From: an uncultured Planctomyces sp.
GTDB lineage: Bacteria > Planctomycetota > Planctomycetia > Planctomycetales > Planctomycetaceae
Assembly: GCA_937899075.1 (NCBI GenBank)
Contig: CALDJX010000049.1
Span: forward strand, 1 to 37,773
Direction: 5' to 3'
Length of the DNA stretch: 37,773 nucleotides
The stretch's first letter is position 1, and each line of letters starts with the position of its first letter. A program made the position numbers and the translations under genes. The notes below the pieces were generated by a model. The model was given only the letters and a program-made list of their open reading frames with translations, did not search any database and was not told where the DNA came from. Below, piece by piece: positions 1,619 to 16,596 of this stretch.

Positions 1619-3128
1619 CGTCTCCGGCCGCAACGGTCTCTTCGTCGGCCACTGGTTGAATCACCGAACTGACTTCAGCGACCAGCTCGTCAACCTGCTC
1701 GAGAATCGACGTTTCGTGCTGCGAGATTTCCTGTTCAAGTTGCAGGTCCAGGCTAATCTTGTTCAGCCCGTCGAATGCAGCCACTTTGTAGCACTCGGCC
1801 ATCGTCGGGTAGTTAAACACGGTGTCGCGGAAGTAATCGATCGTTCCGTCAAACTGCATGACAGCCTGCCCGATGTGGACGATTTCAGTCGCCGAATCGC
1901 CGATCACGTGGACACCCAAAACTTTTCGAGTGTCACGGTGAAAGAGCAACTTCAGAAGCCCCATGCGATCTCCGACGATCTGCCCTTTAGCGATCTCTCG
2001 GAAGCGAGCCACGCCAACTTCGTACGGAACTTTTCGCGCCGTCAACTCTTCTTCGTTCTCGCCGATCATCGAGATTTCCGGAATCGTAAACAGCCCGTAC
2101 GGCATCGTCTGGTATTCGCGTTCCACCTCGCCAAACATGTGCGCGACAGCTCGCCGCCCTTGTTCCATCGAGACGCTGGCCAGCGCTGGAAAACCAACGA
2201 CGTCCCCAACGCCATAAATGTGTGATACGGCTGTTTCGTGGTGCTCGTTACATTCCACCCGACCGCGAGCGTCTGGCTTCAAGCCGGCCGCTTGAAGATT
2301 TAATCCCTCAGTGTCGCCCGTTCGGCCAACGGCCATCAGGACTGATTCAGCAACGAGACGCTTGCCGCTTTCAAGCTCGATCGCCGCTCGGTCTTCGGCC
2401 AACCGGTTGATCTTCACCACGTTTTCGCCCAGACGGAAAACCATTCCGATTGACCGGGCGTGGTACAACAGCGTGTCGACAATTTCTTTGTCGCAGAATC
2501 CAAGCAGTTGGTCTCGACCGTCGACGACTGTCACGTTGACGCCCAGCGTTGCGAACATGATCGCGTATTCAATGCCGATCACTCCGCCGCCGACCACGAT
2601 CATCGAACGTGGAATGTGATCGATGTTGAGTAACTCGTCGGAATCAAAAACGCACTGACCGTCGAATGGTGTCGAAGGATTGCGATCGGGGCGAGTTCCA
2701 ACAGCCAGCAGGACGTGCTCTGTTTCAAGTTTGATCGAATCGCCGTCTCGCGTTACTTCAACCGTGTGAGGGTCAACGAAACGTGCTTCGCCCGCGTAAA
2801 TGTCGACACTGTTTCTGGTGAGCTGATCTTCGATGACTTCCATTTCGCGATGATTGACCGAAGCCACAGACCGTTGCAGATCTGCCATCGTGATGCGTCT
2901 TTTGCGTCGATAGCGCTCTGTGTAAATGTCACGGTGTTTGTAGCCGGTTAGATGCAGAATCGCTTCGCGCATCGTCTTCGAAGGGATCGTGCCCGTGTGA
3001 AGGCACACGCCGCCAATCTGGCTGCTGTTGCGTTCGATGATTGCCACTCGCTTATTCAGTTTCGCGGCGGCAATCGCTCCCTTCTGTCCCGAAGGACCGC
3101 TGCCGATAACGACGAGATCGTATTTCAT
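1611..3128 (-). CDS. sthA: Si-specific NAD(P)+ transhydrogenase (soluble pyridine nucleotide transhydrogenase)
   Basis: This cytosolic FAD flavoprotein moves hydride between NADPH and NAD+, mainly to drain excess NADPH. At 505 residues it has the size of the pyridine nucleotide-disulfide oxidoreductase family. The FAD-binding motif GSGPSGQKGA is at residues 9-18 and a second Rossmann motif (VVGGGVIGIEYA) lies mid-protein. The C-terminal dimerisation region carries NYPTMAECYKVAAFDGLN. The active-site region reads CLHTGTIPSKT: the first Cys (residue 42) is kept, but the second redox Cys of lipoamide dehydrogenases is Thr47. This marks SthA rather than Lpd, Gor or MerA. The start is ATG at 3128 with GGTGATCGAGG upstream. 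It converges on the small membrane-protein gene. Dihydrolipoamide dehydrogenase is excluded by the missing Cys. Confidence 0.93.
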   Translation of the reverse strand: MKYDLVVIGSGPSGQKGAIAAAKLNKRVAIIERNSSQIGGVCLHTGTIPSKTMREAILHLTGYKHRDIYTERYRRKRRITMADLQRSVASVNHREMEVIEDQLTRNSVDIYAGEARFVDPHTVEVTRDGDSIKLETEHVLLAVGTRPDRNPSTPFDGQCVFDSDELLNIDHIPRSMIVVGGGVIGIEYAIMFATLGVNVTVVDGRDQLLGFCDKEIVDTLLYHARSIGMVFRLGENVVKINRLAEDRAAIELESGKRLVAESVLMAVGRTGDTEGLNLQAAGLKPDARGRVECNEHHETAVSHIYGVGDVVGFPALASVSMEQGRRAVAHMFGEVEREYQTMPYGLFTIPEISMIGENEEELTARKVPYEVGVARFREIAKGQIVGDRMGLLKLLFHRDTRKVLGVHVIGDSATEIVHIGQAVMQFDGTIDYFRDTVFNYPTMAECYKVAAFDGLNKISLDLQLEQEISQHETSILEQVDELVAEVSSVIQPVADEETVAAGDVN

Positions 3129-3762
3129 CCTCGATCACCCTGCTCTCTGAAATAGTCAGACTGCTTCCACGCGAAATGGTCGCGAGACAAGCATACCTTC
3201 CCACATCAACGGCGGCGTGACGGTTTTACAGGGAGGTTCGGTTTGAGAATCTGGCCAGCCCCGACAGCACCTGCTGGTCCTGCTGTTTGTATTGCTGAAG
3301 CGTTCAGGTGCCTCACTCAGAGTGGGAGGCGATTGTCCGCACGCGTCACGAGACCATCCGGAATCCTTCGCGACAGGACCTCTCAAACAAAGGCCCACTC
3401 AAACAAGGGCCAACCCAAACGACGACAACCGGCCACAGATTCGTGTTCCCAATCCAGAGAACCAACTCCGACAACGGAACGACTCGGAAAGAATGTTTGA
3501 GCCGACTGCCGGATCCGGCGTTCAACCAGCAATCCAATACTGCGACGCAGCGTGCGACTCAGACAGTCATCACAACCCGAACCATCTGTCACACGCTCAC
3601 AACGCCTGGACAGAACACGCCACCCGCTGACAACTCTCAACCTATGGTTGGAAGCCGTCACGTTTACTGGAAACGTCTGCGGTGTGACGTTTCGTTTCCA
3701 AACGGCCACGACCATCACGTTGAATAACCTGCTGACGCACACCCTGATAAGGGGCACCGAAC
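3129..3762. other. Long intergenic region between sthA and the SPFH pair
   Basis: These 634 bp lie between divergent genes and so should hold promoters for both. Every reading frame here gives low-complexity, Arg/Thr/Gln-rich translations with no recognisable domain, and I accept none as a gene. The only internal structure I see is a short tandem repeat of CTCAAACAAAGGCC (3382-3395) and CTCAAACAAGGGCC (3398-3411), 16 bp apart, inside an A/C-rich strand-biased stretch. A long 5' leader or a small RNA cannot be excluded. Confidence 0.5.
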
Positions 3763-5436
3763 ATGTCTGACGATCCATTTTCAAACTTATCGCGACCTGA
3801 GAAAAAACGACGACGACAGGAAAAGACTCGGCAGGGCAGTCGGACTGTTCTTGCCGTTTTCGGAGTCGTCGTACTGGGCATGGCCATTTACCACAACTGC
3901 CGCATTGACGTCGGCACGGGTGAGATGGCGATCCTGACCGTGAAAACCGGACTCGATATCACCAACGGAGACGAAGTCGCTCCGTCCCTCAATCACAAAG
4001 GGTCGCAGGCGGTTTTTCTGATGGAAGGTCGCTACTTCATGAACCCGTTCGATGAAGGGCCGCGATTCTTCAACCCGTACGATTGGGACTGGGATGTCAT
4101 TCCGCAGACGACTATCCCGGAAGGCAAGCTTGGAATTCTGATCAGCCTGGTCGGTGAAGATCCCGGCTATGGTGAATTCCTCGGAGCCATTGAGAAAGAA
4201 GGGAAGGCTTCTGGCAATCAGATCGGAAATCCGGTCCGAAAAGGGATCATTCCGAACGTGCTGATCCCCGGCCGCTACGCGATCAATCCCAACCTCTTCC
4301 ATCTTGAGATGGGCGAACCAGTCACTATCGAAGCCGGCTACCGCGGTGTGGTCACCAACCTTGCCGGGAAACTTCCAGCGAAACCGAATGAACTGCTTGT
4401 CGAACCTGGAGAACGAGGCGTTCAGCGCGAAACTCTGAAGGAAGGAACGCAACAGGTTAACCCTTACGTGCAACGGATCAGCAAGGTCGACTGCCGCAGC
4501 CAGCGATTTAATCTCGCCGAAAACAAAGACATGGGTTTCCCATCGAAGGACGGATTCTGGGTCAGCCTCGACGGTCGAATCCAGTTCCGAGTGAATCCGG
4601 AAAAGGCGGCCGAGGTCTACGTCATTTACAACGAAGACGAAAACGGCGACGCCATCGACGAAGAGATCATCCGCAAAGTGATCATGCCGAACGCTCGAAG
4701 TTTCTGTCGCCTGGCCGGCTCAGCCAAACTCGGAAAGGATTTCATCGAAGGCGAAACGCGAATGGAGTTTGAACTGAGCTTCCAGACGGAAATGCGTGAA
4801 GCCTGTGAGCCGTTGGGCATCGAAATTCAGGAAGCATTGATCACTCGCATCAACCCGCCGGAACAGATCGCCGAGCCGATTCAGCAGCGAGAAAATTCTC
4901 GACTGGAAGAGCAGAAATATCAGTCGCAGATCACTCAACAGGAAGCGGAGAGGAATCTGGCGATCAGCATGGCCAAAGCAATTCAGGCCAAAGAACTGGT
5001 CGAAATCGAACAGGAAATCATTAAGTTCGTCACCGAAGCCGAACGTGAACAGGAAATCGCGAAAACCAAAGCCGAAGAGAAACTCGCCGTCGCCACGCTG
5101 AAGCTGGAAGCAGCGCAGGACGAAGCCGCCGCGATAACGGCGAGAGGCCGAGCGACGGCAGACGTGATTGGCTACGAAAACAAAGCCGACGCTGCCGGGT
5201 GGAAACGGGCTGTCGAAGCCTTCGACGGCAACGGCGACGAGTACGCTCAGTTTGTGCTGTATCAAAAAATCGCGTCCGCCTACCGACGCATCATGGTTAA
5301 CACGGCGGACAGTCCGATCATGCGAATATTCGAATCGGTCAGCGGAGAATCGTCAGTAGTTCCCGCCGTCCAGCAGGCAGGTTCACCAGTCGCGGATTCG
5401 ATCAAGTCGGTCTCAACGTCTGTCGGATCCGATTGA
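3763..5436 (+). CDS. SPFH/Band 7 domain membrane protein (first of tandem pair)
   Basis: This 557-residue protein belongs to the stomatin/prohibitin/flotillin/HflK-C superfamily, whose members form membrane-anchored oligomeric scaffolds. A basic N-terminus (EKKRRRQEKTR) precedes one transmembrane segment at about residues 28-45. A long SPFH-like region follows (GYRGVVTNLAG near 190; MGFPSKDGFWVSLDG near 250). From about 365 to 480 there is an Ala/Glu/Lys-rich coiled coil (EEQKYQSQITQQEAERN...) of flotillin type, and the C-terminal tail is Ser/Val-rich. The start ATG has AAGGGG 8 bases upstream. The next gene, 94 bp downstream, is a paralogue with the same layout, so the two probably form a hetero-oligomer as HflK/HflC do. 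The protein is longer than typical stomatins because of extra sequence before the SPFH core. Confidence 0.88.
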   Translation: MSDDPFSNLSRPEKKRRRQEKTRQGSRTVLAVFGVVVLGMAIYHNCRIDVGTGEMAILTVKTGLDITNGDEVAPSLNHKGSQAVFLMEGRYFMNPFDEGPRFFNPYDWDWDVIPQTTIPEGKLGILISLVGEDPGYGEFLGAIEKEGKASGNQIGNPVRKGIIPNVLIPGRYAINPNLFHLEMGEPVTIEAGYRGVVTNLAGKLPAKPNELLVEPGERGVQRETLKEGTQQVNPYVQRISKVDCRSQRFNLAENKDMGFPSKDGFWVSLDGRIQFRVNPEKAAEVYVIYNEDENGDAIDEEIIRKVIMPNARSFCRLAGSAKLGKDFIEGETRMEFELSFQTEMREACEPLGIEIQEALITRINPPEQIAEPIQQRENSRLEEQKYQSQITQQEAERNLAISMAKAIQAKELVEIEQEIIKFVTEAEREQEIAKTKAEEKLAVATLKLEAAQDEAAAITARGRATADVIGYENKADAAGWKRAVEAFDGNGDEYAQFVLYQKIASAYRRIMVNTADSPIMRIFESVSGESSVVPAVQQAGSPVADSIKSVSTSVGSD

Positions 5437-5530: not shown

Positions 5531-7237
5531 ATGAACTTATCAAAGCTTCCCGGCGGACCGGCAGCGATTCTCGCTCTGACCGCAGTATTGATCGCTGGCG
5601 GTGGCTGGCTCACCCTTGAATGGGGTTACAACCGCGTCTGGGTTCCCGAAGGGCACAGCATGCTCCTTCGCTATAAGGGGCCGCCATTGCCCATCCCCGG
5701 GCTGGGGACTCGCGTGCCAGCAACGCAGGGAGCCTTCGCCAAAGTCTCTGACGGAAAGAAAACTCCTGACGAACTCGGCGTCCTGGAAAATCTTGTCGGG
5801 CCGGGACGACACTTCTATTGCCCGTTGTGGTGGCAAACGGAAATCCGACCGGACACCGTCATTGAACCTGGAGAAGTGGGAATTGTCGTCTGCAAAATGG
5901 GACAGGATCTCCCCGCGGGAGACTTCCTCGTGGACGGCGACCTTGGCAGCACGACTCAAAAAGGGATCCTTCGAAAAGTTCTTCCACCGGGTCGATACCG
6001 AGTCAACTGGCACGCTTACGAAGTCACGAAGACAAAAACCGAACTCATCAATAGCGGACTTCAAGTCAAGCAGGCGGGCTGGGTTTCCATTCCGACCGGA
6101 TACGTCGGTGTCGTCACAAACCTCGCCGACAATCCGCTAACCGAGCAGAAGGCCGGCATCCAGCCTGACGTCCTGCCTCCGGGTGTGTACCCGATCAATC
6201 CGCGTGAACAGCAGGTCGACATCGTCAACATCGGGTACCGTGAGTTGAGCATCATCGCTGAGCTGAAGAAGGACCAGGCAGGGCTCCCACTCTTCGAATC
6301 AAGCGGCGAACCAATCATCGGTGACGCTGATTCTGGAATTGGATTTCCATCGAATGACGGATTCCCAATCCAGATGGATTTCACCGCAATCTGGGGAATC
6401 ATGCCTGACCAGGCTCCGGACGTTATCAGTCGGTTTGGAAATGTCGACGCCATCAAAGCAAACGTCGTCTGTCCGCAAATCGAAAGCATCTGCCGCAGTG
6501 AAGGATCAAAACTCGGAGCGGTCGAACTGCTTGTTGGCGAGTCTCGGCAGGCGTTTCAGACAAAGACTTCAGAACGTTTCAAAGCAGTACTCGACAAAAA
6601 AGGAATCACTGTTCTGAACGGACTCGTTCGGCATATCTACATCCCTCAGAAAGTTCGACAACCAATCCAGGAAGGCAACATTGCGAACGAACTGAAGCTC
6701 ACTCGCGAACAGGAAGAAATTACCAATCTGACAATGGGCAACCTGAACAAGGCCGAAGCCGAGGTCAACCTCGCGACGGACACCACGGAAGCGGAAACGG
6801 AAAAGCTCGTCGCGTCACGACTCGCGGAAGGCCAGAAAGAGGCCGAAGAAATCACCGCAAAGACCCAGGCACTGGTCGCGGCGATTGACAAAGAAACTGC
6901 CGAGATCGAAGCGTCGGCAACACGACTGCTGGGCGAAGCGGACGCCAGCGCTCGCGAGATGTCGGAAGAAGCGAAAGCAGACAAGTTCGGCCTCGCCGTT
7001 GCGGCCTTCGGATCAGGTAAGGCTTACAACAACTGGGTCTTCGCCCAGGGCCTGCCGGACGACATCGAGTTCGACATGCTCTACGCAGGCGAAGGCACGT
7101 TCTGGACCGACCTCAAAGGCTTCAGCGATGTGATGCTCGGCCGCCAGGTGAGCGAGCAGAACAAGAAAGCTGCTTCCGAAAAACCAGCGCCGAGCGTCGT
7201 TCGTCCTTCAACGCGTCCGACGTCACGCACACGTTGA
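5531..7237 (+). CDS. SPFH/Band 7 domain membrane protein (second of tandem pair)
   Basis: This 568-residue paralogue of the preceding gene shares QKGILRKVLPPGRYRVN versus RKGIIPNVLIPGRYAIN, GYVGVVTNLAD versus GYRGVVTNLAG, and IGFPSNDGF versus MGFPSKDGF. A transmembrane segment lies at about residues 8-26 (AAILALTAVLIAGGGWLTL). An SPFH region follows, then an Ala/Glu-rich coiled coil at about 390-490 (LTREQEEITNLTMGNLNKAEAEVN) and a Pro/Ser/Arg-rich tail. The start ATG at 5531 is preceded by GGAGACAGAAAT, a good ribosome site. It likely shares a transcript with the first SPFH gene and ends at the strong hairpin at 7258-7295. Substrate or partner proteins cannot be told from sequence; a membrane microdomain or protease-regulating scaffold is the family-based guess. 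Confidence 0.88.
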   Translation: MNLSKLPGGPAAILALTAVLIAGGGWLTLEWGYNRVWVPEGHSMLLRYKGPPLPIPGLGTRVPATQGAFAKVSDGKKTPDELGVLENLVGPGRHFYCPLWWQTEIRPDTVIEPGEVGIVVCKMGQDLPAGDFLVDGDLGSTTQKGILRKVLPPGRYRVNWHAYEVTKTKTELINSGLQVKQAGWVSIPTGYVGVVTNLADNPLTEQKAGIQPDVLPPGVYPINPREQQVDIVNIGYRELSIIAELKKDQAGLPLFESSGEPIIGDADSGIGFPSNDGFPIQMDFTAIWGIMPDQAPDVISRFGNVDAIKANVVCPQIESICRSEGSKLGAVELLVGESRQAFQTKTSERFKAVLDKKGITVLNGLVRHIYIPQKVRQPIQEGNIANELKLTREQEEITNLTMGNLNKAEAEVNLATDTTEAETEKLVASRLAEGQKEAEEITAKTQALVAAIDKETAEIEASATRLLGEADASAREMSEEAKADKFGLAVAAFGSGKAYNNWVFAQGLPDDIEFDMLYAGEGTFWTDLKGFSDVMLGRQVSEQNKKAASEKPAPSVVRPSTRPTSRTR

Positions 7238-8334: not shown

Positions 8335-9657
8335 TCAGTCCTGCTTCGCGATGCGGTAAATGTGTGAGTGTGATCGCAGAATCAGCGAGTTGTCTGCGAC
8401 AATCGGCGATGCTGTGAAGCCTTCTTCAAACATCGTTTCATGGACGAGTTCGAAGTCATCGCCTGCCTTCACGACTGCCACTTTCCCATCCTGCGAGCAG
8501 CAATACAGATGCCCGTTCGCGTACAGCGGCGATGACCAGTACGCTCCAGAAACGCGTTCAGCCCACAACACTTCGCCGGTCAGAGCATTCAGACACGAGC
8601 AGACACCGCCGTCTTCCATCATGAAGTAGCGATCACCGGCCAGCACTTGAGAAGGACGTTTCGGGACCATCCGTCCGGCTCGCCATTTGACGTTCGTGTC
8701 GGTGATGTCGCCCTTCCCGTTCGGGTCGACAGCGATCAACGAGTCGGCACCGCTGCCTGCGCTGATGTAAACAAGTCCGTTTCCAATGATCGGTCGCGAG
8801 CCAGCGTTCATGCCGCCGTGATTGACGCGCCACACTGGCTTTCCAGTTTTGGGTTCGTAAGCAATCGTCGCCATCGCGAACGGGCTGACCAGAACTTCGC
8901 GACCGCCGGCGTCAACAATCAGAGGTGTCGAATAAGCCTTCTTACGGTCACCGTTGTCGGTTCCGTAGTCGATGTCACGGTCCGTTTTCCAGACCAACTT
9001 GCCCGTGTTCTTATTCAACGCCGCCACGAACTGTTTGTCATACCCGTCGAACGTCAGAAAAATCAGATCGCCGTGTACTACTGGTGAAGACCCCGGCCCA
9101 CGCCAGTGATGACAACTCAGTTCATGATTCTCCCAGATCTTTTTTCCGGTTTCTGTGTCGATGCAGGCGGTGCCGTACGTTCCAAAGTGGACGTAAATGC
9201 GACCGTCTTCGATCCACGGAGTTGGCGATGCCAGACTGTTCGTCGGGTGTGTGTACTGCGGTTCGTAAACTTCTGACACGGTCACGTCATGAATGACTTT
9301 GCCCGTTTTCAGATCGAGGCAGACTGCCGACAACCGAATCGGATCTTTCAGCGGCTTCGCACCTTTGGAGAATGAATCCTGATTCGTCGCGCCTTCGGGA
9401 TTGATGATCTCGGGAGCGTTCGTCACCCAGATTTGATTTCCCCAGACGACCGGCGTCGACCAGGCTCGACCTTTCATGGGAACTTTCCACACGACTTCCT
9501 TTGAGCCTTCACCAAACGTCAGCGGCAGGCCCTTCGCTTCGGAAGTTCCGTTCGCATGTGGCCCGCGAAACTGATTCCAGTAGCCTTCTGCCGCGGAGAC
9601 TCTTGCAGAGAGAAATGAGAAAGTCAGCAGGCAGGTTGCAAGCAGAACAGTTCGCAT
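8335..9657 (-). CDS. Secreted PQQ-binding-like beta-propeller repeat protein
   Basis: This 440-residue protein has a signal peptide (MRTVLLATCLLTFSFLSARVSAAEG) followed directly by YWNQFRGPHANGTSEAKGLP, the usual opening of planctomycete exported PQQ-like propellers. Repeated blades carry the YVHFGTYGTACIDTETGKKIWE type of motif (hydrophobic strand, then D-x-x-TGK-x-x-W). I choose ATG at 9657 because GGAAGGACATTCCC stands just upstream. A longer frame to 9729 adds only a basic, non-conserved extension. Family members resemble BamB or the propeller of quinoprotein dehydrogenases, but I see no dehydrogenase cofactor residues I can assign. It is first in a two-gene unit with the dioxygenase. A similar paralogue lies at 22480-23733. 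Confidence 0.85.
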   Translation of the reverse strand: MRTVLLATCLLTFSFLSARVSAAEGYWNQFRGPHANGTSEAKGLPLTFGEGSKEVVWKVPMKGRAWSTPVVWGNQIWVTNAPEIINPEGATNQDSFSKGAKPLKDPIRLSAVCLDLKTGKVIHDVTVSEVYEPQYTHPTNSLASPTPWIEDGRIYVHFGTYGTACIDTETGKKIWENHELSCHHWRGPGSSPVVHGDLIFLTFDGYDKQFVAALNKNTGKLVWKTDRDIDYGTDNGDRKKAYSTPLIVDAGGREVLVSPFAMATIAYEPKTGKPVWRVNHGGMNAGSRPIIGNGLVYISAGSGADSLIAVDPNGKGDITDTNVKWRAGRMVPKRPSQVLAGDRYFMMEDGGVCSCLNALTGEVLWAERVSGAYWSSPLYANGHLYCCSQDGKVAVVKAGDDFELVHETMFEEGFTASPIVADNSLILRSHSHIYRIAKQD

Positions 9658-9967
9658 GGGAATGTCCTTCCGAAAAGAGAAACTAAGTCTTCGATGGCGT
9701 ATCGAGATGAACTGTCGCGGTGGGAACAATCACTAACGGCATCAGCGATCGTTAATCGAGGCGGTCAGACATCCGCTTATCCAGCCGACGTCGAAGTTGG
9801 CTGCTAATCTAGTATTGTTCCGACACCTCCGCAAAGCACCGTGGTTGAGCAGCCGATTTACCCGTGAATTCCTTCGCTCAAACCGCTAAAAGGATCAGAT
9901 TAAGGATCGCGACCTTCACTCGGCACTCGGCCGAATTCACCTCCTGCCAGCATCAGAGCACTCGACC
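9658..9967. other. Divergent intergenic region
   Basis: These 310 bp separate the divergent propeller gene and histidine kinase gene and must contain both promoters. I see no convincing open frame, hairpin or repeat. The kinase start is a GTG without a strong ribosome site. Confidence 0.5.
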
Positions 9968-11368
9968 GTGTCTTCCGAATCGGCTTCCAACGATTCTTTT
10001 CGATTTGACCTCGCCGCCGAATCTATCACTCTAAGAATCCGGTGGTTCGGCGTAGCTGTTGGTTTCTCCCTGGTAAATCTGATCAGTGCCGATCTGCTGC
10101 CACCGGGGTCCTCTCGCGATGTCCTGCTGCTGAATTCAATTCTTTGCGTCGGTGTCATCTACGTGGCTCTGGACACGTACTGGAGCTACCGCGGGAAAGT
10201 TTTCTTGAGCGACTGGCCACTGGTCGTGTCTCTGCTTGAGACAGCCTTCATCGGCTTACTTTGCTTCTTCGATCTTGGCCAGGAAAGCGCCTTTCGATTT
10301 TACTACCTGCTGTCTGTGGTCGTGTGCGCGATTCGGTACGCGCCGGTCATCACGTACACGACATTCCTCTTCCACGCGACAAGCTACACCATTCTGCTGC
10401 TGACGTTGCCGTTGTCGAGCACGCTCCCCTGGGTGATCATGGTCGTGTCGATGGGGTGGGTCACCTGGGCCAGCATCCAGCTCTCCATGCTGATCCGAAT
10501 CGCCAGTCAGCGACTCGCCGAAGCCAACGAACAACTGGAACACCGCATCGCTGAGCGGACTCAGGAACTTCGAGAATCTCAGGCAATGCTGGTTCAGCAC
10601 GAAAAGCAGGCGGCGTTCGGATTGCTGGCCGCCGGAATTGCTCACGAGGTTGGTAACCCGCTGGCGGCCATCAGCTCGCTCGTGCAGATCCTGAAACGCA
10701 AGTCGGCCGACCCTGACACGATCGAGCGTTACCAGATGATCGGCGACCAGCTCCGTCGAATTCAGGGGACACTTCGAGAACTGGTCGACTTCAGCCGCCC
10801 GGCCAACAGTCAGGCGAGCGTTTGCGACGTTCGGAATACCGTCGAAGAAGCCTTAAGTATCGCGAAGTATTACAAGCGGCGAAAAGGAAAACGCATTGTC
10901 ACGCACTACGCCGCAGGGTTGCCTTCATTACGCGTCGTGCACGATCAGCTCGTGCAGGTGTTTCTGAATCTGATCCTGAACGCAATGGACGCCACGCCTG
11001 AAGGCGGCACGATCGAAATCTCAACGAGTCTTGAATCCGGCTGGATCCGAATCGATGTCCGAGACACGGGACATGGAATTCGCGACGAGAACCGCGAAAG
11101 CATTTTTGAACCGTACTACACAACCAAGTCGACAGGCACCGGTCTCGGACTGTTCGTCTGTCGTCAGTTGTTGGAACGTGAGTCGAACGGACGAATTGAT
11201 CTCGCTGAAACCGGACCTGGCGGAACGACATTCTCGGTGATGGTGACCGGTGAGAACCTTGCCCACCACGAAGACATTCCGGCACCCACGTCAGGAGCCG
11301 ACCACAGTTTGTCCGTCGCCGAAAGCGTGCTGCCAGCTATTGAGAAATCTGACGGACCGGTCGATTGA
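9968..11368 (+). CDS. Membrane sensor histidine kinase (HisKA-HATPase_c)
   Basis: This 466-residue protein has roughly six hydrophobic segments in residues 25-180 as its sensor part, then a short linker helix (LAEANEQLEHRIAERTQELRESQAML). The H-box GIAHEVGNPLAAISS has the phospho-accepting His at residue 226. The ATPase core follows with N-box FLNLILNAMDATPEGG, G1 DTGHGI, F-box FEPYYTTK and G2 GTGLGLFVCRQLL. The H-box type (HEVGNPL) and compact core resemble NtrB/ZraS-like kinases. The start is GTG at 9968 with no nearby in-frame ATG. No response regulator gene is adjacent; the nearest receiver domain is in the 13795-14871 gene. The signal is unknown. The gene converges on lutC with about 50 bp between them. 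Confidence 0.92.
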   Translation: MSSESASNDSFRFDLAAESITLRIRWFGVAVGFSLVNLISADLLPPGSSRDVLLLNSILCVGVIYVALDTYWSYRGKVFLSDWPLVVSLLETAFIGLLCFFDLGQESAFRFYYLLSVVVCAIRYAPVITYTTFLFHATSYTILLLTLPLSSTLPWVIMVVSMGWVTWASIQLSMLIRIASQRLAEANEQLEHRIAERTQELRESQAMLVQHEKQAAFGLLAAGIAHEVGNPLAAISSLVQILKRKSADPDTIERYQMIGDQLRRIQGTLRELVDFSRPANSQASVCDVRNTVEEALSIAKYYKRRKGKRIVTHYAAGLPSLRVVHDQLVQVFLNLILNAMDATPEGGTIEISTSLESGWIRIDVRDTGHGIRDENRESIFEPYYTTKSTGTGLGLFVCRQLLERESNGRIDLAETGPGGTTFSVMVTGENLAHHEDIPAPTSGADHSLSVAESVLPAIEKSDGPVD

Positions 11369-13794: not shown

Positions 13795-14871
13795 TTAATC
13801 CGGGACTATTTCCGATGCTGCCGACGCGTCGGCGGTCGCCAGCAGAGATTCGAGCATTTCGATCAGAGTCTTGCGTGGGCACGGCTTGGTGAGAAAAAAG
13901 GTTCGCTCGTCGAGCTCTAACGGCGTCTCAAGGTCAGCCTCGCTGAACCCGCTCACCAGAATCGCCGGCGTTTCCGGCAACGTGCCGCGTATCAACTCGA
14001 GACATTCCGGGCCGCTCACTTCCGGCAACGTGACGTCGATTATCAAAACGTCGATGTTCTCGCCAGCCTGCCCGACCTGATAAAGCGCCGAACCACTGTC
14101 TGCGGAAGTGAGAACTGAAACACCCTCGAATTCCAGCAGTAGTCTCAATGAATCCAGGATAGCTTCGTCATCGTCGACAATCAGAACGGTTTTTCCCGTG
14201 AGCGGCGAATCGCTGCCGGGTGGCGGACGGACTGACGCTGCCTCGGCGACGTTCGGATGCTTGTCAAACAGAACCTGGACGTCGTGTTCCAGTTCGAGTT
14301 CTGGATGAGTTTCGGTCCAGAAATGTGCCATCCTGATGAAACCAAGAAACCAGACCAGCCGGTCGTACTTCGCCGGCCCAAACAGGCGACGAAGTTCCCG
14401 TTCGGAATCATCTGCTCCTTCGCTCCGTAGAAATACAGCGGCCAGACACGGAAACAGTGCGGCCTCCGCGTCCTGCCCCCATTCATCGAACGGTGCTTCA
14501 AGGCTCGCGACGAGCTTCAGGTTTCGAGCGACTTCAGTGTAATTCGGAAGTCGACTCTGCAGCGTGCTGACGACCTCGTCCGGTGACATTGCCGGGCAAT
14601 TTGCATCACCGGCGACGTTGCCAGCACCCAGCAAGAAGGCCGCGTGGCGTCCTACGCAGTAAGGGACGCAACAGAATCGCGACAGGTAGGCAAACAAACG
14701 CTCTTTGAACAGAGACGGAAACGGCGCGTCCAGATACCCGAATCGTGCGGCGGCCCAAAGCTGCTGCGAGACCGAAATATCCTCAGGCAGCAGAAAGAAC
14801 GCCGGGCAGACTCCCATCCGAGCTTCAATCTCAGCTTCCAGGTCGCCAATCGTCTGTGCTGATTGTTTCAT
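13795..14871 (-). CDS. AhpD/CMD-like region fused to a C-terminal response-regulator receiver domain
   Basis: This protein has 358 residues from ATG at 14871; a longer TTG-started form to 14901 is possible. Residues about 20-200 resemble the carboxymuconolactone decarboxylase/AhpD-like region found in some signalling proteins: an all-helical stretch with FCCVPYCVGRHAAF (Cys 67, 68, 72; His 76) and a later HFWTETHPELELEHDV. Residues about 226-345 are a CheY-like receiver: acidic pocket DDD 233-235, phospho-acceptor D279 (LIIDVTLPEVSG), Ser307 and Lys329 (LTKP). No DNA-binding or enzymatic output domain follows. The order sensor-like region then receiver is unusual. Phosphorylation might gate a redox or metabolite-sensing module. 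It is divergent from the STAS-cupin-STAS gene. Confidence 0.8.
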   Translation of the reverse strand: MKQSAQTIGDLEAEIEARMGVCPAFFLLPEDISVSQQLWAAARFGYLDAPFPSLFKERLFAYLSRFCCVPYCVGRHAAFLLGAGNVAGDANCPAMSPDEVVSTLQSRLPNYTEVARNLKLVASLEAPFDEWGQDAEAALFPCLAAVFLRSEGADDSERELRRLFGPAKYDRLVWFLGFIRMAHFWTETHPELELEHDVQVLFDKHPNVAEAASVRPPPGSDSPLTGKTVLIVDDDEAILDSLRLLLEFEGVSVLTSADSGSALYQVGQAGENIDVLIIDVTLPEVSGPECLELIRGTLPETPAILVSGFSEADLETPLELDERTFFLTKPCPRKTLIEMLESLLATADASAASEIVPD

Positions 14872-15345
14872 TCCAAAATTATTCTCAGGACCGAGTAGCA
14901 AGCATCATTGGAGTCAGATGCAAGTCGCACACCAACTAACGTTGACCGTCACACCACGAGCAAGCGGATAAGACGTTCAGCAAAGAACGAATTCGTCAGC
15001 ACCTTCGATGCATCCATCTGCGACCACATAAATCTTTGGCCAGTCTAAGGGTTTCGCTAAACAAAAAAGGCACCGACAAATCTGAATCGCAACCGTCCGC
15101 CGCCACGCTTGTCGGCAACTTATGCAGCTCGAATTATTTCGGCGTGCGGGCTGCCGATGATCGGCAATCTTGTTTATTGTGGAATTTATTGTGGGAATCG
15201 TTCAGGTGTGACACAGTGGCTCGAAGAAATATTCGCCCGATTTATCGTCAGCCTGTCGGGGAGGCACGTTGGACTTTGAATTGCCTCAAGAGCGGTCCCA
15301 CAGTGACTGGTCGGCCGCAAGCGAAATTGTCCGAGGATCATACAA
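14872..15345. other. Long divergent intergenic region with small repeats
   Basis: These 474 bp separate the divergent CMD-REC and STAS-cupin-STAS genes. They contain a 13-bp palindrome and an adjacent direct repeat, listed separately. No open frame in it gives a recognisable protein. Its length suggests regulated promoters or a long leader. Confidence 0.5.
15153..15197. promoter_or_regulatory. Candidate operator: palindrome plus tandem repeat
   Basis: GCCGAT-G-ATCGGC (15153-15165) is a perfect palindrome. It is followed 7 bp later by two abutting copies of TTTATTGTGGAA (15173-15184) and TTTATTGTGGGAA (15185-15197). They lie about 150-190 bp upstream of the STAS-cupin-STAS start. Such structure fits a protein-binding site, but no regulator can be named. 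Confidence 0.35.
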
Positions 15346-16596
15346 ATGTTGCTGAGTACGGATTGTGCGGAAGCTGAATCTGTTGATGGCGGAATCGTCG
15401 TTCGTCTGAACAGCCTGGCCGACCATCACAAGTTCGTGGCACTGCTGCTGGAACTCGACATCTTCGTACGCGAGGCCCAGCCACCGCGAGTTGTCATTGA
15501 CCTGTCCGGTTCCGGATTTCTGCAATCAAGGACGCTTGGCGAAATCGCTCGACTGGCCAACTCGGCCGCCCGCGCAAAAACCCGGCTCATGCTCTGCAGC
15601 TCGAATCCAATCGTGCAGAAAGTCATGACCGCGACGAAGCTCGACGAACTTGTCACGGTCTGCCAATCCGTCGAAGCAGCAAAAGATGTTTGGGAGAACC
15701 CTGGCGTGGACGTCGCGCCGGGTGGTCAGGCGTCTGCCGACGGCAAAGCATCCAAAAGTGGATCAAAGGCCAGCCGGGCGAGCGGACCAGCACCGGGTCG
15801 TTACGGACTGCCGCGAAACTTCTTCAAGTTCATCGCCGATCACGAGCGGCAGCTCGAAGTGGAATCGTTCCCCTGGGGAAACATGAACTGGCTGGCCGGA
15901 CCGCCGATTACCCCGTCAGCGTTGCTGCACGTGGCGAGGGTCCAGATCAAACCCAACTGCGTGTGGTCCTTCCATCAGCACCCGGACATGGAAGAAGTCA
16001 TCATCGTGACCAAGGGCAAGGTCGAGCAGTGGATCGACCAGAAAAGCCAGGTGCTGCACGCTGGCGAGTCCGCAACCATTCCGCAGAACATCGTCCACGC
16101 GACATTCAACAACGAAATGCAGCCGGCCGATGTCATCATGATTCACTGTCCGAGTCGCAGTGAAGAATCGTCAACCGTCAGCGTGGTCGCCGAGGAACCC
16201 TGGAAGACCATTCTCCGACGACGCGACTACCCCAACCTGGACATCGTCTGGCAGGGTAAGAACCTGTTCGCGCGAGTCACCAATCACAAGATTCTCGACT
16301 CAGCCAGCACCGACGCGTTCCGATCATCGATGCTCAGTCTGGAATCTGACGGGCAACCGGAAAAGTTCATCATCGATTTCCAGGAAGCGTGGATCCTCTC
16401 CAACACGGTGCTCGGCGTGCTGGGAGAATTGCAGCACCGCATGAGCGACGGCCGCCGCGAACTCTGCGTGTGCGGCTTGTCAGACGAGGCTCTCAAGAAT
16501 TTCAAGAAGACGCGGCTCTCAGAATTCATCGTGATGTACGATTCCGTCAAAGCGGCACTCGACGACCTCAACAAGCCCAAAGAGTCGACTGAATAA
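15346..16596 (+). CDS. STAS-cupin-STAS three-domain protein
   Basis: This is a soluble 416-residue protein with a rare domain order. Residues about 15-115 look like a STAS domain (anti-sigma antagonist/stressosome type): RVVIDLSGSGFLQSRTLGEI, with Ser61 where SpoIIAA-like proteins are phosphorylated. After a Gly/Ser/Ala-rich linker (120-150), residues 170-270 form a cupin. Its motif 1 is H210-Q-H212-x4-E217-x6-G224 and its motif 2 is G240-x5-P246...H251-x3-N255, so a full metal-binding 3-His/1-Glu set is present. Residues about 300-405 form a second STAS-like domain (KFIIDFQEAWILSNTVLG, Ser352). The ATG at 15346 is preceded by GAGG at good spacing. A ligand-sensing partner-switch protein is the inference; an enzymatic cupin is the alternative. 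Confidence 0.82.
   Translation: MLLSTDCAEAESVDGGIVVRLNSLADHHKFVALLLELDIFVREAQPPRVVIDLSGSGFLQSRTLGEIARLANSAARAKTRLMLCSSNPIVQKVMTATKLDELVTVCQSVEAAKDVWENPGVDVAPGGQASADGKASKSGSKASRASGPAPGRYGLPRNFFKFIADHERQLEVESFPWGNMNWLAGPPITPSALLHVARVQIKPNCVWSFHQHPDMEEVIIVTKGKVEQWIDQKSQVLHAGESATIPQNIVHATFNNEMQPADVIMIHCPSRSEESSTVSVVAEEPWKTILRRRDYPNLDIVWQGKNLFARVTNHKILDSASTDAFRSSMLSLESDGQPEKFIIDFQEAWILSNTVLGVLGELQHRMSDGRRELCVCGLSDEALKNFKKTRLSEFIVMYDSVKAALDDLNKPKESTE

Follow-up and report, generated by a model that had tools for sequence, protein, structure and literature searches.

The window analysed here, a stretch of 37,773 nucleotides, is the entire contig C49 of a planctomycete genome that is fragmented into 745 contigs. 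An open reading frame on its forward strand, with confirmed coordinates, encodes a protein of 416 aa in which a cupin domain (with a Cupin_2 match at residues 199-266) lies between two STAS domains. The parts of the gene and of its product are as follows:

15346-16596, + strand: STAS-cupin-STAS protein, 416 aa (orthologues 80-89% identical over the full length)
15370-15681, + strand: STAS domain 1, residues 9-112, phosphorylatable type (PF01740 E 6.8e-11 for the domain alone; STAS fold in AlphaFold2; TM1442 alignment)
15526-15528, + strand: Ser61, equivalent of the phosphorylated Ser of SpoIIAA/TM1442, with Gln60 for the preceding Asp and Thr63 for the Gly (alignments)
15700-15786, + strand: Ala/Ser/Gly-rich variable linker, residues 119-147 (dN/dS and identity)
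15811-16203, + strand: cupin domain, residues about 156-286, with WG...W, EQW and EPW motifs (Cupin_2 profile; 28 stand-alone relatives)
15973-16098, + strand: metal-ligand set H210, H212, E217, H251, HxHx4E ... H (invariant among orthologues; kept in the stand-alone family)
16231-16569, + strand: STAS domain 2, residues about 296-408 (PF01740 E 7.9e-10 for the domain alone; AlphaFold2 pLDDT about 62-85)
16399-16404, + strand: Ser352-Asn353, the phosphoserine column being held by Asn353, not Ser352 (alignments)

Intergenic gaps of 444 bp upstream (to an opposite-strand gene) and 236 bp downstream separate the fusion from its neighbours. Upstream, on the other strand, lie the gene of a response-regulator protein and the lutBC genes, of LUD/Fe-S lactate-utilisation type, and downstream follow DUF1559, creatininase and then (by eye) DUF1549/1553-type genes. 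lutBC is found near the fusion in all four carrier genomes; at one of these loci (L033) the response-regulator gene is absent, lutB directly adjoins the fusion and the downstream genes are different. Inspection of the four carrier loci found no RsbW-type kinase, phosphatase, sigma or anti-sigma gene adjoining the fusion, and neither RsbS/RsbT neighbours nor an RsbR-RsbS-RsbT cluster beside it. No shared upstream control sequence is visible, the upstream DNA of the orthologues being too diverged.

Some neighbouring genes have features of their own. The response-regulator protein (13795-14901, - strand, 368 aa; present at locus L031 as well) carries its receiver at the C-terminus, and its N-terminal half, which has no Pfam match, includes by eye a Cys-Cys-His stretch (CCVPYCVGRH) resembling AhpD/carboxymuconolactone decarboxylase-like proteins. 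At L031, an open reading frame of 586 aa (2480-4240, + strand), lipoxygenase-like by eye and absent from the window, lies between a histidine kinase and lutBC. The window also encodes two neighbouring Band_7/SPFH proteins (3763-5436 and 5531-7237, + strand) whose comparable length makes them a probable tandem pair.

Domain folds, distribution and selection

The domain order proposed by the sequence-only reading is borne out by profile searches and, for the two flanking domains, by structure prediction. Specifically, STAS (PF01740) reaches 74.9 bits in two matched stretches against a cut-off of 22.6, Cupin_2 reaches 48.2 bits against 27.2 (E 1.2e-13), every domain still clears its Pfam cut-off when submitted singly, and the NCBIfam anti-sigma antagonist model TIGR00377 exceeds its cut-off with two matched stretches. 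An AlphaFold2 model built from the four orthologues gives STAS folds at both ends, mostly with pLDDT of 63-85, and their top PDB matches in Foldseek are the anti-sigma antagonists SpoIIAA, RsbV and RsbS (TM on target about 0.7-0.8). Both copies thus have the STAS fold of SpoIIAA/RsbV antagonists according to Pfam and AlphaFold2, and the flanking regions, for which that reading had named structure prediction as a check, are predicted to be STAS folds. Residues 121-294 fall below a pLDDT of 50, and a second run with the cupin alone was again of low confidence, which is likely due to the shallow alignment; the cupin assignment is therefore based on profile scores and motif conservation. The tree (p-AU 0.53) does not distinguish an internal duplication from independent origins of the STAS domains.

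The fusion is present in all four genomes of its genus with at least 90% completeness and at most 5% contamination. Outside the genus it was found in none of the genomes sampled from the family (170), the class (398) and the phylum (392), sets that overlap (E at most 1e-12 to 1e-15), where the matches correspond to the cupin part; the class and phylum scans scored the best four candidates per genome, so that a diverged fusion could be missed there. A pattern scan across 84,980 species genomes, which reaches close relatives only, returned no more than the three known orthologues, all from uncultured Planctomycetaceae/Planctomycetota metagenome-assembled genomes, and the search for plasmid-borne copies gave only low-identity matches to the cupin part. 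The architecture is thus confined to one genus in the sampled genomes of Planctomycetota, and its absence from the family, class and phylum samples beyond the genus argues against a widespread one.

The domains are under strong constraint (dN/dS 0.01-0.08; identity 79-99%), while the linker has a dN/dS of 0.3-0.7 and an identity of 32-40% in most pairs. The fusion is under purifying selection, and because three other assemblies carry it whole under such selection, a chance open reading frame or an assembly artefact is ruled out.

The cupin and its stand-alone relatives

The complete cupin metal set that had been read from the sequence (H210, H212, E217, H251) is found at those positions and is invariant across the four orthologues. 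The residues and the profile agree with the ligand pattern of metal-binding cupins (HxHx3-4E...H), in a putative barrel that was modelled with low confidence. The relatives of this domain, found scattered across Planctomycetota, are stand-alone cupins of about 140 aa with about 30-41% identity over the cupin, the same metal ligands and the EQW/EPW motifs; each ligand is kept in 27 of the 28 relatives aligned (one row has gaps at three of the ligands, and there is one Arg). They differ from the fusion in five conserved residues and in having no STAS domain in the open reading frames checked (none of 35). The fusion's cupin derives from this phylum-wide stand-alone family.

Besides the metal ligands, the fused cupin keeps W177, W182, E227-Q228-W229 and P285-W286 of the 28 relatives. 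The five replacements (stand-alone/fused: H/M180, R/G185, H/W207, Y/I220 and H/T244) are mostly to apolar residues, and their position close to the ligands along the chain suggests that they may line the cupin pocket. Metal ligands kept while other conserved residues change are the pattern expected of a domain that has moved to a new ligand.

Could the cupin instead be a working enzyme, regulated or localised by the two STAS domains, with a metabolic output in place of partner switching? The four intact metal ligands fit such a role, as do the nearby lutBC genes in all four genomes and the mainly stand-alone occurrence of the family, whose members in the fusion's genus lie just downstream of a PLP-dependent threonine-dehydratase-like gene (L036 1378-2993, L037 4742-6232). 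However, no catalytic function is known here for this cupin family, the five residues conserved in its stand-alone members have been replaced, mostly by apolar ones, and a stand-alone paralogue persists in three of the four carriers, which makes this explanation rather unlikely.

Cupins often dimerise. With two STAS domains per chain, a cupin dimer would bring four of them together in one particle, and the cupin could then be an inert dimerisation spacer in a stressosome-like, STAS-multimerising scaffold, its metal being structural only. STAS assemblies do form stressosome cores (PMC9237128, PMC9237108), but a pure spacer need not keep its metal ligands while other conserved residues change, and the gene has no RsbR-RsbS-RsbT cluster beside it; such a scaffold is accordingly improbable.

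Phosphosites and candidate partners

The claim that both STAS domains keep the phosphorylated Ser holds for the first and fails for the second. In an alignment to TM1442, Ser61 matches the Ser that is conserved within the MDSAG motif and is the phosphoacceptor in this family. The gapless alignment of the two domains (43-114 against 334-405, locus L031) pairs Q60 with S352 and S61 with N353 (window numbering), and an alignment to 4hyl likewise puts Asn353 in the phosphoserine column and Ser352 one residue before it. An alignment that includes the other STAS domains of the genome gives this register too, with Ser61 in the phosphoserine column. Helix 2 of the AlphaFold2 model begins at residue 61 in STAS1 and at residue 353 in STAS2, which fits this register. 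STAS1 thus has the phosphoacceptor Ser where helix 2 begins, and STAS2 does not. Ser61, Ser352, Asn353 and Thr354 are all invariant in the four orthologues, and in STAS1 the Asp and the Gly that usually precede and follow the Ser are missing, so that the DSxG motif reads QSRT.

With Ser61 in register and Asn at the site of STAS2, the cupin would be flanked by one live and one apparently dead STAS domain. Phosphorylation of STAS2 on Ser352 or Thr354, two invariant residues that flank the canonical position, would make both domains switches, but most of the other STAS domains of the genome have Ser in the Asn353 column, and we regard this as very improbable. Another STAS domain of the same genome (C325, locus L065) has no Ser at the phosphosite column either (Leu in the alignment); degenerate STAS domains are thus not confined to the fusion. 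A different family within the class has two STAS open reading frames next to each other (L016 in G037, L019 in G046).

Possible partners are encoded elsewhere in the genome, which has nine SpoIIE-type phosphatases and seven HATPase_c_2 kinases above the cut-off, together with 14 STAS domains beyond those of the fusion. No strict SigB/F/G family sigma factor lies above the cut-off in the genome, where the best match reaches 125 bits and 234 are required; the output may therefore be something other than a sigma factor. Within the family, STAS relatives of the fusion that consist of a single domain (C520 of the same genome; L048) adjoin a HATPase_c_2 kinase gene.

A near-complete congener without the fusion (G004; 760 contigs, 7% contamination) bears on the choice among these kinases. 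Its flanks of the locus are kept, with lutB (93% identical) on one side and DUF1559 and creatininase on the other, and the lutB-DUF1559 interval (contig C260, locus L103, about 9600-10150) holds a weak possible remnant of STAS2 (18 residues, ~379-396, E 0.068). This genome is also without a close orthologue of the C520 STAS (best 35% against 94-100% in the four carriers) and of the adjoining kinase (best 47% against 90-100%). The STAS and kinase genes of the C520 type lie next to each other, so that their absence counts once, and the joint absence is one event in a fragmented draft assembly; it nevertheless makes the C520 kinase the first candidate partner. In a genome that is 59% complete (G002), the C520-type kinase is present and the fusion was not detected, and many family genomes have this STAS type without the fusion, so that the STAS/kinase pair is independent of it.

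Proposed mechanism and known systems

Partner-switch circuits are widespread in bacteria, and the signals that they read are known in few cases. The best reading of the protein's function, which we infer together with phosphorylation, metal binding, ligand gating and partner identity, is a ligand- or metal-gated partner-switch protein with RsbR-like logic in a new architecture. A small molecule or metal would probably set a partner-switch signalling circuit through the fusion. We lean, with modest confidence, towards a partner switch that the cupin gates and in which Ser61 is switched, STAS2 being an arm that cannot be phosphorylated.

The fusion would then be a soluble, single-gene partner-switch protein. 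STAS1 would act as a SpoIIAA/RsbV-like module whose Ser61 cycles between the phosphorylated and unphosphorylated states through the action of a HATPase_c_2 (RsbW/RsbT-like) kinase and of a SpoIIE-type phosphatase, the genes of which lie elsewhere. STAS2, with its fold kept and Asn at the site, would likely serve as a non-phosphorylatable docking or dimerisation arm, and the cupin as a receiver, in which ligand occupation or metal state would alter how the STAS arms are presented to the kinase. A more specific form of this proposal is a single-chain switch that has a live STAS on one side of a metallo-cupin and a non-phosphorylatable pseudo-STAS on the other, and in which the ligand or metal state picks the arm that holds the kinase; it is possible though doubtful. 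Of the gated partner switch as first suggested, the anatomy and the matching kinases and phosphatases in the genome fit, but there is one phosphoserine STAS domain, not two, and no adjoining partner gene. A cupin set directly between two STAS arms would make metal, ligand and phosphorylation accessible to joint assays in one soluble protein. The arm that has lost its Ser hints at a way for a sensor to retain a kinase by which it is not phosphorylated.

The literature searched (with few subscription journals) for proteins that combine STAS and cupin domains, or that have STAS domains in tandem or in pairs, does not describe the architecture. The zinc anti-sigma factor ChrR has a C-terminal cupin-like domain (PMC6852236) and likewise ties a metal-binding cupin to sigma-factor-type control, but there the cupin is joined to an N-terminal zinc anti-sigma domain, whereas the N-terminus of the fusion is a STAS domain, and the ChrR cupin model PF12973 scores 14 bits on the fusion against a cut-off of 27. 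SpoIIAA/RsbV antagonists share with STAS1 the fold and the phosphoacceptor Ser, but STAS1 is part of a three-domain chain and has QSRT in place of DSxG.

The LOV-STAS protein YtvA is an RsbR-type stressosome sensor. Sensor-plus-STAS is indeed an established design, with the heme globin-STAS protein VvRsbR as an example (PMC9237108) and sensor-STAS RsbR proteins as precedents (PMC9237108, PMC9237128). RsbR proteins have an N-terminal sensor and a single C-terminal STAS domain with phospho-Thr/Ser and are encoded with RsbS and RsbT; the fusion departs from both patterns, the latter in all four genomes. Like VvRsbR and YtvA, it has a sensory domain fused to STAS, here in a genome that also encodes HATPase_c_2 kinases and SpoIIE phosphatases, but with no RsbS/RsbT neighbours seen, and its putative sensor is a cupin, placed between two STAS domains of which the C-terminal one has Asn at the phosphosite.
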